From Bryobacteraceae bacterium (lineage in GTDB: Bacteria > Acidobacteriota > Terriglobia > Bryobacterales > Bryobacteraceae): 64,000 bases of DNA. The notes beneath the pieces are model-generated. The model was not told where the DNA came from. It made no database searches and worked only from the letters and a program-made list of their open reading frames with translations. The position numbers and the translations under genes are program-made. This document shows positions 221 through 58,648 of the stretch, piece after piece; position 1 is the stretch's first letter, and every line of letters starts with the position of its first letter. Location of the stretch: NCBI GenBank assembly GCA_026002875.1, contig BPGE01000001.1, positions 3,224,001-3,288,000 of the forward strand. The letters run 5' to 3'.

Positions 221-418
221 CAGAGGAGCGTTCCTGCAGAACGCGTCACTGGTCTCCATAATTGATCCGATGCAAATGAATCTGGAGCCCGGCTCGTTAC
301 TTGAGCGCCGGTGAGCATGCTCCGCAAGGAGAAGCCTGAAGGCGCGCGGCGGGCGCCCCCCGTGGTCGATCGGGGTCGATTCCGAGGCTGGAACGGTTAT
401 TGTGGTGCGCTCCTTCTG
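221..418 (+). ncRNA. ssrS: 6S RNA
   Basis: 6S RNA binds housekeeping RNA polymerase holoenzyme by mimicking an open promoter and dampens transcription in stationary phase. The most diagnostic stretch is at 310-340: a GGTGAGCATGCTC block, a short hairpin, then GAGAAGCCTGAA, which matches the corresponding segment of E. coli 6S RNA very closely. The ends pair: CAGAGGAGCG (221-230) with CGCTCCTTCTG (408-418, one bulge) forms the closing stem, giving about 198 nucleotides against 184 in E. coli. A promoter at 185-214 predicts the same 5' end. No T-rich terminator follows; the gene ends six bases before ymdB, so 3' processing or read-through into ymdB is likely. End positions are estimates from the stem. 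Confidence 0.88.
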
Positions 419-10582: not shown

Positions 10583-11136
10583 GACCGCACCCCTTTCCGC
10601 ACAGCCTCCACCTCGCGCTCGAGCGCGCGCTCATTCACGTGGCCGAGAATCTGATGGTCCACCTCCACCACCGGCGCCAGCGCGCATTGCCCGAAACAGG
10701 CCACCGTGCGGATCGTGAACTCTCCGTCCGGCGTCGTCGCCGTCAGCTTGTCCGCGCTTCCTCCGTCCTCGCCCTCGCCCACCCCGAGCAGCAGCCTGAG
10801 CCGCTCCAGCAGCGCCTTCGACCCGCGCGTGTGGCATGCCGTCCCGCGGCAGATGCACACCGTGTGCCTGCCCTGCGGCTTCAGATTGAACAGCGCATAG
10901 AACGTGGCCACGCTGTAAATCTGCGCGCCAGGAATTCCCGTCCGGCTCGAAAGATATTCCAGGTAATCCAGCGGAAGGTATTTCTTCGGCTGGTTCTCCT
11001 GGATCTCCTCCAGAATGTTCAGCAGCATTCCGGGGCGCCCCCGGTGCCGCGCAATCAGCCGGTCCAGATAGTCCTGCTCGTCCGCCGTCAGCGGGCCCGG
11101 CGCCGGTTTCTCGCCGGGCAGAAGGGCTGAAGTCAT
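10579..11136 (-). CDS. hoxE: Diaphorase subunit HoxE (NuoE-like)
   Basis: Thioredoxin-fold [2Fe-2S] protein, first gene of the hydrogenase operon. C96 and C101 (CRGTAC) with C147 and C151 (CFGQC) form the NuoE-type binding site. The ATG at 11136 gives 185 residues; the frame is open upstream for 28 more codons but that part overlaps a strong inverted repeat and the likely promoter. The stop overlaps the hoxF start by four bases. Confidence 0.93.
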   Translation of the reverse strand: MTSALLPGEKPAPGPLTADEQDYLDRLIARHRGRPGMLLNILEEIQENQPKKYLPLDYLEYLSSRTGIPGAQIYSVATFYALFNLKPQGRHTVCICRGTACHTRGSKALLERLRLLLGVGEGEDGGSADKLTATTPDGEFTIRTVACFGQCALAPVVEVDHQILGHVNERALEREVEAVRKGVRS

Positions 11137-11150
11137 GCTCCGTTTCCTTT

Positions 11151-11183
11151 CGACATATACCAGATAAACGTATCTGAATGTCG
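11151..11183. promoter_or_regulatory. Double inverted repeat upstream of the hydrogenase operon
   Basis: An inner dyad CAGATA-AACG-TATCTG (11161-11176) lies inside an outer dyad CGACAT (11151-11156) / ATGTCG (11178-11183). The element ends 14 bases upstream of the hoxE ATG, between it and the end of the preceding gene on the same strand. Nested perfect arms in this position suggest a dimeric repressor or activator site; it could also fold as a hairpin in the leader. No known consensus (Fnr, Rex, Fur) fits. Confidence 0.5.
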
Positions 11184-11189
11184 GATGCA

Positions 11190-11207
11190 ACCGGGTGTTC
11201 GCCCGGT
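11190..11207 (-). terminator. GC hairpin after the Mut7-C gene
   Basis: ACCGGG and CCCGGT pair around a six-base loop, 25 bases after the stop of the Mut7-C gene and before the hoxE dyad. There is no T-run, so termination here would be weak or factor-dependent. Confidence 0.25.
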
Positions 11208-11232
11208 GGAAACAGGTCATGCCATTCTTGTT

Positions 11233-11937
11233 TCAGGCCCCGCCCTGCTGCCCGTCCCGCACTGACCGGATCCACTCCTGCATCCGCTCGTAGTGGGATC
11301 CCGGCCAGTACAGCTGCCCACAGCCCGGGCACAGCGCGTATTCCCCGCACCACAGCCTCGTCTTCGGCGGGATGCGCTCCCACACCGCCTGCTTCTTCAC
11401 CGGCTCGAGCAGAGCATTGCACCGCAGGCACCGGCGCAGCGGCTCGGCCTCATCCCACAGCCCCAGCCGGCGCGCCAGCCATGCCAGCTGCTCGCGCGGA
11501 TCATCGCTCCTCACCAGGAATCCCCGCCTCACCTGCTTCCGCATCAGCAGGCTCCGGTCGCGCGTCAGCAGAAAACGGCCTCCGGCAGCCGCTTCCGCCA
11601 GCTCCGCGTCATGCAGGCGCGCGTCGTACTGCGTGTCGAATCCCAGAATCCGCAGGTACTTCGCCAGCCGCCCCAGATGACAGTCCAGCACGAACCGCCA
11701 CCCTCCGTCCGGAGGCCCTGCATACACGCGCGGACGCACTTCCACTTCTTGCCCGTCCTTCAACAGCGGGCTCAGGTCTTCAGGCTCGCCCACTTCCGGA
11801 TGCGGCACGCCAAATGTTTCGATGGCATGCTTCAGCGAAGGACGGTCCTGAAACTCGTACTCCAGCCACACGCCGCGCTTCGCTGCCGGCAGGAAATCAT
11901 TCAGCTCCCCGTGAAACCGGAACCGCGCGCGCCGCAC
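11233..11937 (-). CDS. Mut7-C RNase domain protein with ubiquitin-like N-terminus
   Basis: A 234-residue protein. The first 80 or so residues resemble the ThiS/ubiquitin-like fold that precedes Mut7-C domains. The remainder is the PIN-like Mut7-C domain: acidic residues in FVLDCHLGRLAKYLRILGFD, a FLLTRDR motif, and a C-terminal zinc ribbon with CLRCN and CPGC pairs. The family is predicted to be a metal-dependent RNase; its substrate is unknown. It lies upstream of hoxE on the same strand but is separated by a hairpin and a dyad, so it is probably not part of the hydrogenase operon. It is divergent from the M16 peptidase gene. Confidence 0.85.
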   Translation of the reverse strand: MRRARFRFHGELNDFLPAAKRGVWLEYEFQDRPSLKHAIETFGVPHPEVGEPEDLSPLLKDGQEVEVRPRVYAGPPDGGWRFVLDCHLGRLAKYLRILGFDTQYDARLHDAELAEAAAGGRFLLTRDRSLLMRKQVRRGFLVRSDDPREQLAWLARRLGLWDEAEPLRRCLRCNALLEPVKKQAVWERIPPKTRLWCGEYALCPGCGQLYWPGSHYERMQEWIRSVRDGQQGGA

Positions 11938-12014
11938 GCCTCCACGATAGCTCTGCGAATGAGACAGAAAAAGCCGCCGTCGATTGTTTACGATGGGAGC
12001 AGGGATTCTGGATC

Positions 12015-14764
<2,750 letters not shown>

Positions 14765-39882: not shown

Positions 39883-40575
39883 TCAGCGCCCCGAACCGAC
39901 CTGCAGCGCGAACTCCCTCAGCAGCAGCCCGGTGTCCGGATCCTGGATCCGCACCCAGTAACGGCCGGAAGACAACCCCTTTTGCAGAACGAAGCGAACC
40001 CCGTTCCCCTCGCGCCCGGCCACGCCTTCAGCCATGATTTTGCCCGTCGTATCGACAACCGCCCAGCGGAAAGACTCCAGCGGCGGCAGTCCCCGGACGT
40101 CCGCATCGATGGAAAGGCTCCGCCTCTCCGGCGGCAGATTCGCACCGGAGGGATCAGCCGCCCGGACCGCAACCAGTTTCACCTCAACGGCTTCGCTCCC
40201 CCGGAACTGCCTCACGGCGAGGCTGCCGCCCACGGCCAGCAGCGCCACCGACGCAGCGATCGCCCAGCGGGGCGGCGAAAACCGGCGGCCCGCGTCCTGC
40301 GGCCGTTCCTCAGGGGCTTCATCCGCTGCATGCGGTTCCATCTCGGCGCGGGTAGCGGCCCCACGCATGGCTTCGATGAAGCTCTCCTCTTCCTCCACCC
40401 GTTTCCGGCAGTCTTCACAGAAGAGCAGGTGCTCCTCGACAGCCTCGCGGCTGACGCCGGAAAGCCTCTGGAACAGAAAGTCTTCCACCTCCTGCTCCGA
40501 AAGGCAGTGCTCCGGGGATCTGCGGGTCAAGAGACCCTCCTGCTGATCATCCTCGTCCCAGTATAGACCCGTCAT
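39883..40575 (-). CDS. Membrane protein with anti-sigma-type zinc finger
   Basis: A 230-residue protein. The N-terminal cytoplasmic part has the ZAS pattern H49-x3-C53-x2-C56 (HLLFCEDC), as in anti-sigma factors. A membrane helix lies at about 104-122 and the rest is a periplasmic beta-rich domain. ATG 40575 is preferred over a longer frame because of its AGGAAGGAG ribosome site. No sigma factor gene is next to it, so its partner is unknown. On the minus strand a TATACT box at 40672-40667 could be its -10 element. Confidence 0.75.
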   Translation of the reverse strand: MTGLYWDEDDQQEGLLTRRSPEHCLSEQEVEDFLFQRLSGVSREAVEEHLLFCEDCRKRVEEEESFIEAMRGAATRAEMEPHAADEAPEERPQDAGRRFSPPRWAIAASVALLAVGGSLAVRQFRGSEAVEVKLVAVRAADPSGANLPPERRSLSIDADVRGLPPLESFRWAVVDTTGKIMAEGVAGREGNGVRFVLQKGLSSGRYWVRIQDPDTGLLLREFALQVGSGR

Positions 40576-41158
40576 CGCGGCTCCTTCCTGCATCGCACGG
40601 CGGCATTCCAGGCGCCCGCCCCAGGCGAAGGGCTGGCAAAAATGGATTGTCACATGCAGGTGCGCAAGTATAGTGCCGGGCCGGTAAAATTTCTCTCACA
40701 AAAGGAAGCACAATTCCGTAACAGTTTGTTCTTCCTCCGGTTCCGCTGCTGAAACTCCCCTCCTGCAGATGCCCTCGCCGCCCTCCCCAACGGGTTTCCC
40801 CTCGCGCTTGCGCGAGGGCTGCATCCCAACCCTGCCCCCGGCGCCACCCCAACGGATTTCCCCTCGGCCTTGGCCGAGGCCTGCATCCCAACCCTGCCCC
40901 CGGCGCCACCCCACCGGATTTCCCCTCGGCCTTGGCCGAGGGCTGCATCCCAACCCTGCCCCCGGCGCCACCCCAACGGATTTCCCCTCGCGCTTGCGCG
41001 AGGGCTGCCTCCCAACCCTGCCCGCCTGTGCCGCCGGAACGCCCAGCCCCCCGCCCGGCTCAGCCAGGGCCGGCGATCCCGGACAAGCCGGATCGTCCGT
41101 CCCCCAGGAACACGGCTCCCACTGTCCGGTTCAGCAGGACGCCCGGGAAAGAGCGCCT
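40576..41158. other. 583-base intergenic region with tandem repeats
   Basis: Lies between the start of the anti-sigma-like gene and the end of the epimerase gene. It holds a possible promoter near 40667-40672 (minus strand) and a four-copy tandem array at 40785-41025. Reading frames across the array give Gly/Arg-rich periodic peptides that simply mirror the DNA repeat, and I do not regard them as genes. The stretch 41030-41158 shows nothing recognisable. Confidence 0.7.
40785..41025 (+). repeat. Tandem array of a 62-bp hairpin repeat, four copies
   Basis: Copies start at 40785, 40847, 40909 and 40971 with an exact period of 62. Each has the order CCCCAACGG[G/A]TTTCCC, a hairpin with a TT loop, GGCTGCATCCCAACC, then CTGCCCCCGGCGCCA as linker. 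Stems alternate: copies 1 and 4 use CCCTCGCGC/GCGCGAGGG, copies 2 and 3 use CCCTCGGCC/GGCCGAGG. The two inner base pairs are swapped in both arms, so pairing is kept. Copy 4 lacks the end of the linker. Related copies occur near 52.5, 52.75 and 58.6 kb. Confidence 0.93.
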
Positions 41159-42043
41159 CTACAGATACGACCCCGAAGCGATTTCGTCGAAGATCGACGG
41201 ACGCCGCACGGTCCAGCCGAAAAACCGCGCCGGCTTCGTCGAGCCCGCCTTGCACGTCATGGCCAGGCAGTCGGCAATCGGGCCGAGTTCTTCGCGCGCC
41301 TGCTCGAGGGGAATATGCTCCACCCTGCCGGGCACGCCGCAGGCCTCGGCCACGGCCTCGGCGATGCGGTTCACCTGCTGCGGCATGCCTCCGCAGGTCA
41401 CGAAAAGCTGGCCGCCGGCCGGCTTCAGCACGGCCCTCACATAGAGATCCGCCAGGTCGTCGGCGTGCACGCAGGACCAGTAGTTCTTACCGTTCCCAAT
41501 CACCCGGACCACGCCCAGTGCGCGCGCGTCCTCGAAAAACCCTTTCAGAAAACCGCCCTTCCGGCCGAAAACCATGCCCGGCCGGAACACCATCGTGCGG
41601 ACGCCCCGTTCGTTGGCCTCCAGCACCAGTTCCTCCACTGCAGGCCGCCAGGCCACCAGCGGCGGCGGATTCAGCGGCGCCACCTCGCCCAGCATCCGGT
41701 CCCCCGTGTCCCCGTACACCCAGACGCCGCTCGTATAGATGAACGGCTTGCCGGAACCCTCCAGAGCCCCCAGCATCGCTTCCACGGCGCTGCGGTCCAC
41801 GGCCCCCGCGTCCGGCGTGAACGCCATGGCCGTGTGGATCACGGCATCAGCCTGCCGGCAGCCCTGCCGCAGGCTCTCCGGATCCTCGAGACTGCCCCGC
41901 AACGGTTGATCGCCGCGCGCGGAGAGCGCCGCAGCCTTATCATCCGACCGCGCCAGGCCAAGAGCCTCATGGCCCGCCGCGCGCAGGGCATCGCAGATGG
42001 CCGAACCGATGTAGCCGGTCGCTCCGGTGACAAAAACCCTCAT
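41159..42043 (-). CDS. NAD-dependent epimerase/dehydratase-like protein
   Basis: A 294-residue extended short-chain dehydrogenase-like protein. The nucleotide motif GATGYIG lies at 7-13. In place of the usual YxxxK the corresponding region is WRPAVEE, so catalytic activity of the classical type is doubtful; it may act as an atypical reductase or NADP sensor. Substrate unknown. It follows the thiolase gene by 31 bases on the same strand. Confidence 0.83.
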   Translation of the reverse strand: MRVFVTGATGYIGSAICDALRAAGHEALGLARSDDKAAALSARGDQPLRGSLEDPESLRQGCRQADAVIHTAMAFTPDAGAVDRSAVEAMLGALEGSGKPFIYTSGVWVYGDTGDRMLGEVAPLNPPPLVAWRPAVEELVLEANERGVRTMVFRPGMVFGRKGGFLKGFFEDARALGVVRVIGNGKNYWSCVHADDLADLYVRAVLKPAGGQLFVTCGGMPQQVNRIAEAVAEACGVPGRVEHIPLEQAREELGPIADCLAMTCKAGSTKPARFFGWTVRRPSIFDEIASGSYL

Positions 42044-52445: not shown

Positions 52446-52469
52446 CCCCAGCGGATCTCCCCTCGGCCC
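52446..52469 (+). repeat. Hairpin repeat, copy 5 (truncated)
   Basis: Keeps only the leading CCCCAGCGGATCTCCCC block and the left stem arm CTCGGCC; the right arm and tail are missing and copy 6 begins three bases later. The junction suggests deletion between neighbouring copies. Confidence 0.75.
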
Positions 52470-52471
52470 TA

Positions 52472-52525
52472 CCCACGGGTTTCCCATCGCGCTTGCGCGA
52501 TGGCTGCATCCCAACCGTGCCCCCT
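52472..52525 (+). repeat. Hairpin repeat, copy 6
   Basis: Same order of blocks: ACGGGTTTCCC, stem, GGCTGCATCCCAACC. The stem is CCATCGCGC/GCGCGATGG with a TT loop: compared with copy 1 an outer C:G pair has become A:T on both sides. Confidence 0.88.
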
Positions 52526-52723
52526 CCCACCCCGCAAACCCTTGCCCCGCAACCCCCACCCAAACCCCAAACTGCGATTTTGCGAAACGAACCGAAACCC
52601 GACCCGCGCAAACAGAGCCGCGAGGGAGCAGCCCGAAGGGCTGCGACCGAGCGGTTAAAACACAACGTCCCCAACCTTCCGACACCCTCCCTCGCGCCGC
52701 AGGCGCGACCGGTCCGCCGCCTT

Positions 52724-52777
52724 CCCCAGCGGGTTTCCCCTCGGCCTTGGCCGAGGGCTGCATCCCAACCGAGCCCC
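52724..52777 (+). repeat. Hairpin repeat, copy 7
   Basis: CCCCAGCGGGTTTCCC, stem CCCTCGGCC/GGCCGAGGG with TT loop, then GGCTGCATCCCAACC, identical in plan to copy 3 of the tandem array. Confidence 0.9.
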
Positions 52778-52784
52778 TCGCTCT

Positions 52785-52822
52785 CCCCAACGGGTTTCCC
52801 GCCGCCGTCGGGCGGGGCTGCC
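52785..52822 (+). repeat. Hairpin repeat, copy 8 (divergent stem)
   Basis: CCCCAACGGGTTTCCC is intact, but the stem is CCCGCC/GGCGGG with a larger loop, followed by GGCTGCC. Its right flank has lost the CATCCCAACC tail. Confidence 0.75.
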
Positions 52823-53290
52823 GGATCTCCAGGCCGATGCTTCCCGGGCGATGCCGCAATGCGCCCGAGGCGGCGCCGCGCCTCGACGGAGGACGGTCAC
52901 GCGGCCGGGCTGCGCATCGGCGCCTTCCGGTTGACACGCGCGAGGCCCACGGCGCCGGACTCCTCGAATGAATCCGGCGCCGCGCCCGCCTGCATCAACC
53001 CCTTCGCCCCGCCTCGTCCTTCACCGGTTCCCGCACCCGCAGTGTATCTGCATAGAAGGAACAGCAATTCGATTTTCGTTTTCTTCCGCCCGGCCGTTTG
53101 CACGCCCTCATCGCCGGCAGCGTCTTCGATTGCACGATCGGCGCCCCCGCGAGACCGCTTTACCTGTTCATTGCACTCCGTCCTTCAGCAGCCCGGTCCG
53201 GGCGCTCCCGGGACGGTCGTCCTGATGCGGAAAGGCAAGATTGAATTCCCCGTAACAACCGCCGCCCGGACCGCATCCTTCCTGCAGAGC

Positions 53291-58600: not shown

Positions 58601-58648
58601 CGGCCGGGATGCAGCCCTCGGCCAGGGCCGAGGGGAAACCCGCTGGGG
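58601..58648 (-). repeat. Hairpin repeat, copy 9 (inverted orientation)
   Basis: On the minus strand: CCCCAGCGGGTTTCCC, stem CCCTCGGCC/GGCCGAGGG with a CT loop, then GGCTGCATCCC. It lies in the 363-base gap between the DUF362 gene and iscR. The remaining bases of the gap before 58790 show no gene. Confidence 0.9.

Follow-up and report, generated by a model that had tools for sequence, protein, structure and literature searches.

What keeps a tandemly repeated hairpin paired when the letters of its stem change from copy to copy, and is there a gene that serves it? The intergenic array at positions 40770-41023 of the window raises this question. The window is the whole 64,000-nucleotide stretch that was analyzed, positions 3224001-3288000 of the single 4,863,736-bp contig that makes up the genome of this Bryobacteraceae bacterium. 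The hairpin family of the window, with the frame RTTTCCC-stem-GGGCTG, is referred to here as family 1, and it is probably a non-autonomous REP-like DNA element of high copy number that the class-3 Y1/HUH transposase RAYT-1 serves.

Copies in the window and across the genome

The array (plus strand) comprises 4.1 units with a period of 62 bp and a 90% match and is bordered by two minus-strand genes (39883-40593 and 41159-42043), confirming the tandem hairpin repeat with four copies reported in the preliminary description. Its outer copies (40785-40831 and 40971-41017) have the stem CTCGCGC/GCGCGAG, and its inner copies (40847-40893 and 40909-40955) have CTCGGCC/GGCCGAG. A second locus holds four plus-strand copies: a truncated left half (52446-52468), a copy between divergent genes with the stem ATCGCGC/GCGCGAT (52470-52516), a CTCGGCC/GGCCGAG copy (52724-52770), and a degenerate copy with an imperfect GCCGCC-like stem (52785-52831). 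The third locus, between plus-strand genes, is a single minus-strand copy (58602-58648) with the stem CTCGGCC/GGCCGAG and the loop CT in place of TT. The three loci therefore stand as first described, but only seven of the nine copies are well formed, one being truncated and one degenerate. The left-flank motif has nine matches in the window (up to 3 mismatches) versus 0.64 expected and a maximum of 3 in 100 shuffles. Over 53 aligned columns, the seven well-formed copies have a mean identity of 90%, and three of their inner-stem pairs are altered on both arms, as had been claimed for at least three pair positions. The stem CCCGCC/GGCGGG, previously listed as a type of the family, has to be withdrawn; its source is the degenerate copy at 52785, whose folding does not exceed that of shuffled sequences (z 0.16), and the intact counterpart of this stem elsewhere in the genome is GCCGCCC/GGGCGGC. 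The second locus also contains a hairpin of a second family (CAGAGCCGCG...GCGACCGAGCGGTT; 52613-52656, plus strand), which flanks another transposase gene, RAYT-2, elsewhere in the genome. Separately, Rfam assigns window positions 228-411 (plus strand) to 6S RNA, at 47.5 bits versus a gathering score of 46.4.

Genome-wide, the pattern CGGRTTTCCC N16 GGCTGC with up to 2 mismatches matched 570 times (235 forward, 335 reverse), compared with 8 matches (5 and 3) for a reversed-pattern control, and a stricter pattern gave 519 matches versus 0. The hundreds of genomic copies anticipated for a structured family are thus present (519-570 versus 0-8). A phylum-wide pattern search gave 490 matches in the own genome and no more than 7, a chance-level count, in any of 395 other genomes, just two of which belong to the family Bryobacteraceae. 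Among 237 genomes of the family, G399, from the same genus, had 16 copies by pattern and 22 by model, ten others had one pattern match each, and the remainder had none; the single matches in G396 and G427 are, by eye, hairpins of the family-1 kind.

Comparison with relatives suggests turnover at individual sites. At the locus of the window array, the corresponding gap measures 150-303 bp in G396, G397, and G398 versus 555-597 bp in the window, and 825 bp in G399 versus 462 bp in the window, with no model match in the gap of any of these four genomes. Conversely, a four-hairpin array of G399 separates two genes that overlap, as called, in the own genome, so that its site is empty there. In one further gap, a single copy in G399 corresponds to a longer array in the own genome.

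The position of the copies relative to genes was determined in 100 evenly spaced 20-kb stretches covering 41% of the genome, in which a codon-usage caller placed 1684 genes (88% coding). A stem with 6 or all 7 of its pairs formed was required for an element to be counted, and two loci at stretch edges were excluded. Outside called genes lay 208 of the 227 sampled elements, which are dispersed over about 50 loci; the other 19 fall within two low-scoring open reading frame calls composed of the array itself. The 49 element-bearing gaps were convergent in 17 cases, codirectional in 24, and divergent in 8, versus 74, 347, and 179 among 600 element-free gaps of at least 60 bp. Convergent gaps are therefore enriched for elements (17/49 versus 74/600, p = 1e-4), and divergent gaps are depleted of them (8/49 versus 179/600, p = 0.05). 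Within codirectional gaps, orientation was mixed (16 sense and 8 antisense, p = 0.15), and no replichore bias of orientation was detected in a test made without a mapped origin (p 0.535).

The elements are arranged strictly head to tail: neighbors less than 300 bp apart in this sample pointed in the same direction in 166 cases and were inverted in none. The 214 copies retained, one of them a chance match, form 48 arrays, of which 18 are singletons and the longest has 19 copies. The most frequent array spacing is 63 bp, and within-array spacing differs from locus to locus. Arrays less than 10 kb apart were oriented alike in 14 of 15 cases, though orientation is mixed genome-wide, and some of these like-oriented neighbors may be single arrays divided by spurious gene calls. 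Two other identities were considered for the arrays and rejected: (i) a coding repeat, because the common periods of 62, 64, and 61 bp are not consistently multiples of three, and (ii) an integron attC site, because the flank boxes CCCCAAC and TCCCAAC are, on inspection, direct rather than inverted.

Stem types and covariation

Four perfectly paired stem types account for most of the 214 copies: CTCGCGC (93, plus 17 with a CTCG loop), CTCGGCC (52), GCCGCCC (19), and ATCGCGC (8). Covariation was measured in a set of 89 copies (87 distinct), taking one copy per stem type and 3-kb block and removing the chance match. In this set, 96.2% of 1131 stem cells are paired, and two-sided paired changes occupy 88 cells versus a shuffled mean of 25.3, a value that was reached in 0 of 500 shuffles; slid controls gave at most 5 such cells. 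The covariation score was 0.264 versus 0.103 in shuffles, again reached in 0 of 500. The proposal that paired structure rather than sequence is kept, with significant covariation, therefore holds in the genome sample. Within the inner stem, 87 cells changed on both sides, 3 were one-sided standard pairs of the G-U type, and 21 were unpaired. The independent events are few, however, amounting to about three stem-type changes scattered across many loci, and neither the count of pairs altered on both sides (5; 163/500 shuffles) nor that of further pair types (13; 199/500) exceeded shuffles.

The two arms are strongly linked to one another, with normalized mutual information of 0.64-0.91 at four pairs, and adjacent stem columns within one arm are linked as well. 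Between stem and flanks, mutual information averaged 0.057 (largest 0.15) versus a null of 0.045, and among flank columns it was 0.109. Flank differences across loci were nearly the same for copies with unlike and like stems (7.13 versus 7.06), and within arrays they were 5.31 versus 3.57; in nine pairs of units from the same array, the flanks are identical and the stems different. Stem type is thus nearly independent of the flanks across loci and less fully so within arrays. Rare hybrid units with arms from different stem types (L147 at about 10683-12163, L070, and L093) look as if recombined within the hairpin.

The agreement between arms may reflect either selection of recombinants or hairpin-templated copying. 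Hairpin-templated copying during replication, or quasi-palindrome correction, is central to an explanation in which family 1 consists of passive repeats that were dispersed in the distant past or through fortuitous recombination, had their arms matched by such copying, and grew into arrays by slippage, with no protein recognizing them. Such passive repeats would fit arms that are linked together and hardly to flanks only 6-15 bp away, the nine same-array pairs with different stems, the locus-to-locus variation in array spacing, and the rarity of unpaired hybrid stems, which recombination between types should produce. However, this explanation leaves unaccounted for the dispersal to about 50 loci in 41% of the genome, the intergenic position and the bias toward convergent ends, and the occurrence of the same frame at homologous transposase genes in another genus (see below), and we consider it unlikely.

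The preliminary description had also offered a structured RNA or mRNA-end element, in which transcribed hairpins would protect or terminate messages. While the covarying stem, the enrichment at convergent ends, and the depletion of divergent gaps all suit this idea, the orientation relative to genes is not fixed, G-U intermediates are few (3 one-sided versus 87 two-sided cells, with 21 unpaired), and a T run beside the hairpin is absent from the sequence. Moreover, Rfam has no match over the elements in the window or in L099, L104, and L142, and, G399 aside, none of the 235 other genomes in the family has more than one match. An RNA function is therefore quite improbable, and a DNA element is favored.

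RAYT-1, its homologs, and other transposase genes

A Y1_Tnp search of the own genome returned two genes, RAYT-1 and one at 3427295. RAYT-1 lies outside the window, at genome positions 2167718-2168164, and encodes a Y1/HUH protein of 149 amino acids. It matches Pfam Y1_Tnp above the cut-off (E 2.5e-6) and stays below the NCBIfam cut-offs for IS200 (27.9 of 55 bits) and REP transposase (19 of 80 bits). The best PDB folds for its AlphaFold model (pLDDT 89.5) are TnpA of IS200/ISDra2, with TnpA_REP (4er8) at rank 12. Residues H69, H71, W108, Y129, and Q134 are invariant across 14 and across 9 aligned proteins, the former being 14 of 25 class-3-like search loci (L170 from its minus strand), and the features of Y1 class 3 (HUH, W, and Y----Q) are all found in RAYT-1. 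On these sequence features, RAYT-1 is assigned to the rare TnpA_Y1 'class 3' type.

Three family-1 copies follow the RAYT-1 stop codon, the third weaker at 40.6 bits, and a hairpin with the family-1 frame also lies 5' of its start; in addition, a 70-nt segment with half a unit is duplicated on both sides of the gene. Such proximity is uncommon: among 1623 called genes, a copy lies no more than 60 bp from an end in only 8. An open reading frame for a DDE transposase adjoins RAYT-1. Where the preliminary description suggested looking for a RAYT/TnpA-REP gene, the genome has this RAYT-type gene with hairpins on both sides.

At E of at most 1e-20, RAYT-1 has homologs in five genomes of genus g291 and three of genus g2, all within the family. 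Ten homolog loci were examined, covering all eight of these genomes except G612 (g2). In G629, G622, and G626 (L286, L287, L289, L290, and L291), the homologs are flanked by ATTNCCC-stem-GGGCCC hairpins, which are oriented as the gene in these 5 of the 10 loci. In G627 (L295), the hairpins are oppositely oriented, continue with GGGTCC, and show one compensated stem pair. No same-frame hairpin was found at L288, L292, L293, and L294 by a scan that misses GCCGCCC-type copies; the two g2 genomes covered are without it. RAYT-1 is 33-42% identical to its best homologs, those in the other genus that carry the same frame. The frame is also abundant in G629 (129), G622 (100), and G626 (82) compared with controls of 29, 30, and 34. 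By comparison, the six other members of that genus, including the homolog-bearing G623 and G627, stayed near control level with 19-31 matches versus 11-21, and the six remaining genomes searched had 12-34 versus 4-21. Two of the five homolog-bearing g291 genomes, G623 and G627, are therefore without the frame in the right orientation and without high copy number. Among the exact matches listed for G622, compensated stems include TGGGC/GCCCA, CCGGC/GCCGG, and CCAGC/GCTGG. In a 2-Mb sample of the own genome, at most 20 ATTNCCC-type hairpins lay outside family 1, again by a scan that misses GCCGCCC-type copies. RAYT-1 and the frame-bearing homologs share an 18-column gap relative to RAYT-2, RAYT-3, and two other class-3-like proteins. 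In G629 (L286, 2204-5300), three tandem copies of the class-3 gene and its hairpins, with an 810-bp period, are followed by further hairpins, gene and hairpin being amplified jointly.

RAYT-1 is preferred as the cognate enzyme mainly because the same frame stands beside its homologs and is high-copy in three genomes of another genus. The earlier statement that the repeat is not attached to any gene type can no longer be upheld, since the family surrounds a class-3-like gene and homologs in these three genomes have the same frame; among the functions first suggested, a REP-type element moved by a REP-associated transposase is the one that the evidence favors. The main result against the RAYT-1 explanation comes from G399, which has 16 family-1 copies and no RAYT-1. 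The one class-3 gene of G399 by eye resembles RAYT-2, and the hairpins 3' of it belong to a different family.

RAYT-2 (2182253) and RAYT-3 (800893) are two further class-3-like genes of the own genome, found by searching with the shorter Y1 gene. Each is flanked on both sides by its own, different hairpin family, which suggests one hairpin family per transposase gene. That family 1 is moved by some other enzyme encoded in this genome (RAYT-2, RAYT-3, the gene at 3427295, or the DDE transposase) has very little probability: the family-1 copies of G399 with only a RAYT-2-like class-3 gene, the DDE transposase next to RAYT-1, and a degenerate family-1-like remnant seen by eye 3' of RAYT-2 would agree with it, but RAYT-2 and RAYT-3 are bordered by their own families, and the 3.3-3.4-kb loci of RAYT-2, RAYT-3, and the gene at 3427295 contain no family-1 copy at E 0.1.

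The families at RAYT-2 and RAYT-3 (families 2 and 3; L191 and L192) have the frame CAGAGCCGCG...AGCGGTC. Family 2 gave up to 27 pattern matches in a 2-Mb sample, a few of them by chance. In family 3, the stem of one copy is entirely different yet paired. By self-BLAST, 39 of 83 class-3-like loci had direct repeats within 700 bp versus 5 of 58 distal controls, and 25 of 83 had inverted repeats versus 1 of 58. Self-BLAST was used in place of a stricter hairpin-pair scan, which found 2 of 80 near class-3 genes and 0 of 78 far from them. By eye, class-3-like genes of Planctomycetes, Legionella, and other hosts have flanking motifs close to GAGCCGCGACCGTNAGGGAGCGG (L231, L248, L254, L273, L277, L278, and others).

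Proposed mechanism and comparison with known systems

For a DNA element served by RAYT-1, we infer recognition, cutting, mobility, and array growth as follows. When a single strand is exposed, the unit of roughly 50 nt would fold into a hairpin with a nine-pair inner stem closed by C-TT-G and a short outer helix, GGRT/ATCC. RAYT-1 would read the hairpin shape together with the constant flanks, its catalytic Tyr129, with the HUH residues His69 and His71, would cut beside the hairpin, and the enzyme would rejoin the unit elsewhere. Copies would persist between genes, best at convergent gene ends, and local duplication and recombination would extend them into longer head-to-tail arrays. A few fully paired stem types would be interchangeable among otherwise similar units because, in this proposal, pairing is required and the inner-stem letters are not; the letters vary and yet stay paired because shape rather than sequence seems to be recognized.

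A more specific idea, which we put forward tentatively and at somewhat less than even chances, is that family 1 represents a shape-coded, head-to-tail kind of REP belonging to a Bryobacteraceae class-3 clade, in which the whole inner stem is a module swapped between units. If true, the genome as a whole would document, in natural sequences, how an HUH enzyme recognizes structure alone. The link between one class-3 clade and a hairpin frame now extends over two genera. Hundreds of natural copies separate pairing from sequence and offer ready-made substrates, so that shape recognition is directly testable.

In IS200/IS605 elements, hairpins act as recognition sites. RAYT-1 resembles TnpA of ISDra2 and IS608 in its predicted fold and catalytic motifs; unlike in IS200/IS605, the hairpin alone is the repeated unit, and no two-ended gene-carrying element was seen in the genome. 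Recognition that tolerates altered stem letters has been described for two group-3 TnpA_REP enzymes, where altered letters had a moderate or small effect on cutting and a stem mismatch reduced it severely, whereas E. coli TnpA_REP tolerates a swapped upper stem but differs from the others in requiring a mismatched bulge (PMC8266576). If family 1 is recognized like group-3 REPs, compensated stems would follow naturally.

Family 1 resembles the GTAG REPs with their RAYT genes, which are short intergenic palindromes, often in more than 100 copies, with a cognate Y1 gene, and which likewise have tandem unit clusters and sub-families with alternative complementary stem residues (PMC3733652, PMC3686654). 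Compensation in itself is thus no novelty, having a precedent in the GTAG REPs (PMC3733652). Family-1 arrays are direct only, in contrast to the inverted (head-to-head) pairs that predominate in GTAG families, and RAYT-1 differs in transposase class from the GTAG-family RAYT (PMC3733652, PMC3686654). The 89-copy consensus has no GTAG or GTGG tetranucleotide beside the stem (the bottom strand reads GCAG) and no CGTC on either strand, and inverted neighbors of the REPIN/BIME kind are absent within 300 bp in the 41% sample (0 opposite versus 166 same).

The closest relatives are the TnpA_Y1 class-3 systems, for which the genes, the Y----Q motif, and high-copy flanking structures are already published, including about 600 structure copies and three class-3 genes in Solibacter usitatus Ellin6076, and whose 'origin and behaviour' were left to be determined (Quentin et al. 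2018, PMC6006769). In the literature searched, only that paper and PMC3733652 treat REPs, Acidobacteria, and a transposase together, and the Solibacter genome paper, in the parts accessible, mentions palindromes only for CRISPR (PMC3174227). Family 1 shares with class 3 the acidobacterial host, the H-V-H, W-A, and Y----Q motifs, hairpins at the gene, and hundreds of copies (PMC6006769). The 5' foot is CnGA in published class 3 (PMC6006769); in family 1 the corresponding stretch reads CGGA in 71 of 214 copies and CGGG in 125 of 214, and it overlaps the outer helix. RAYT-1 also lacks an 18-column N-terminal stretch present in RAYT-2 and other class-3 members. The main text of PMC6006769 never uses the word 'tandem', and the parts consulted do not mention compensated stems. 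A REP-like class-3 element is thus known in outline (Quentin et al. 2018), and family 1 is distinguished by direct arrays without inverted pairs, by a consensus without GTAG, and by interchangeable stems.
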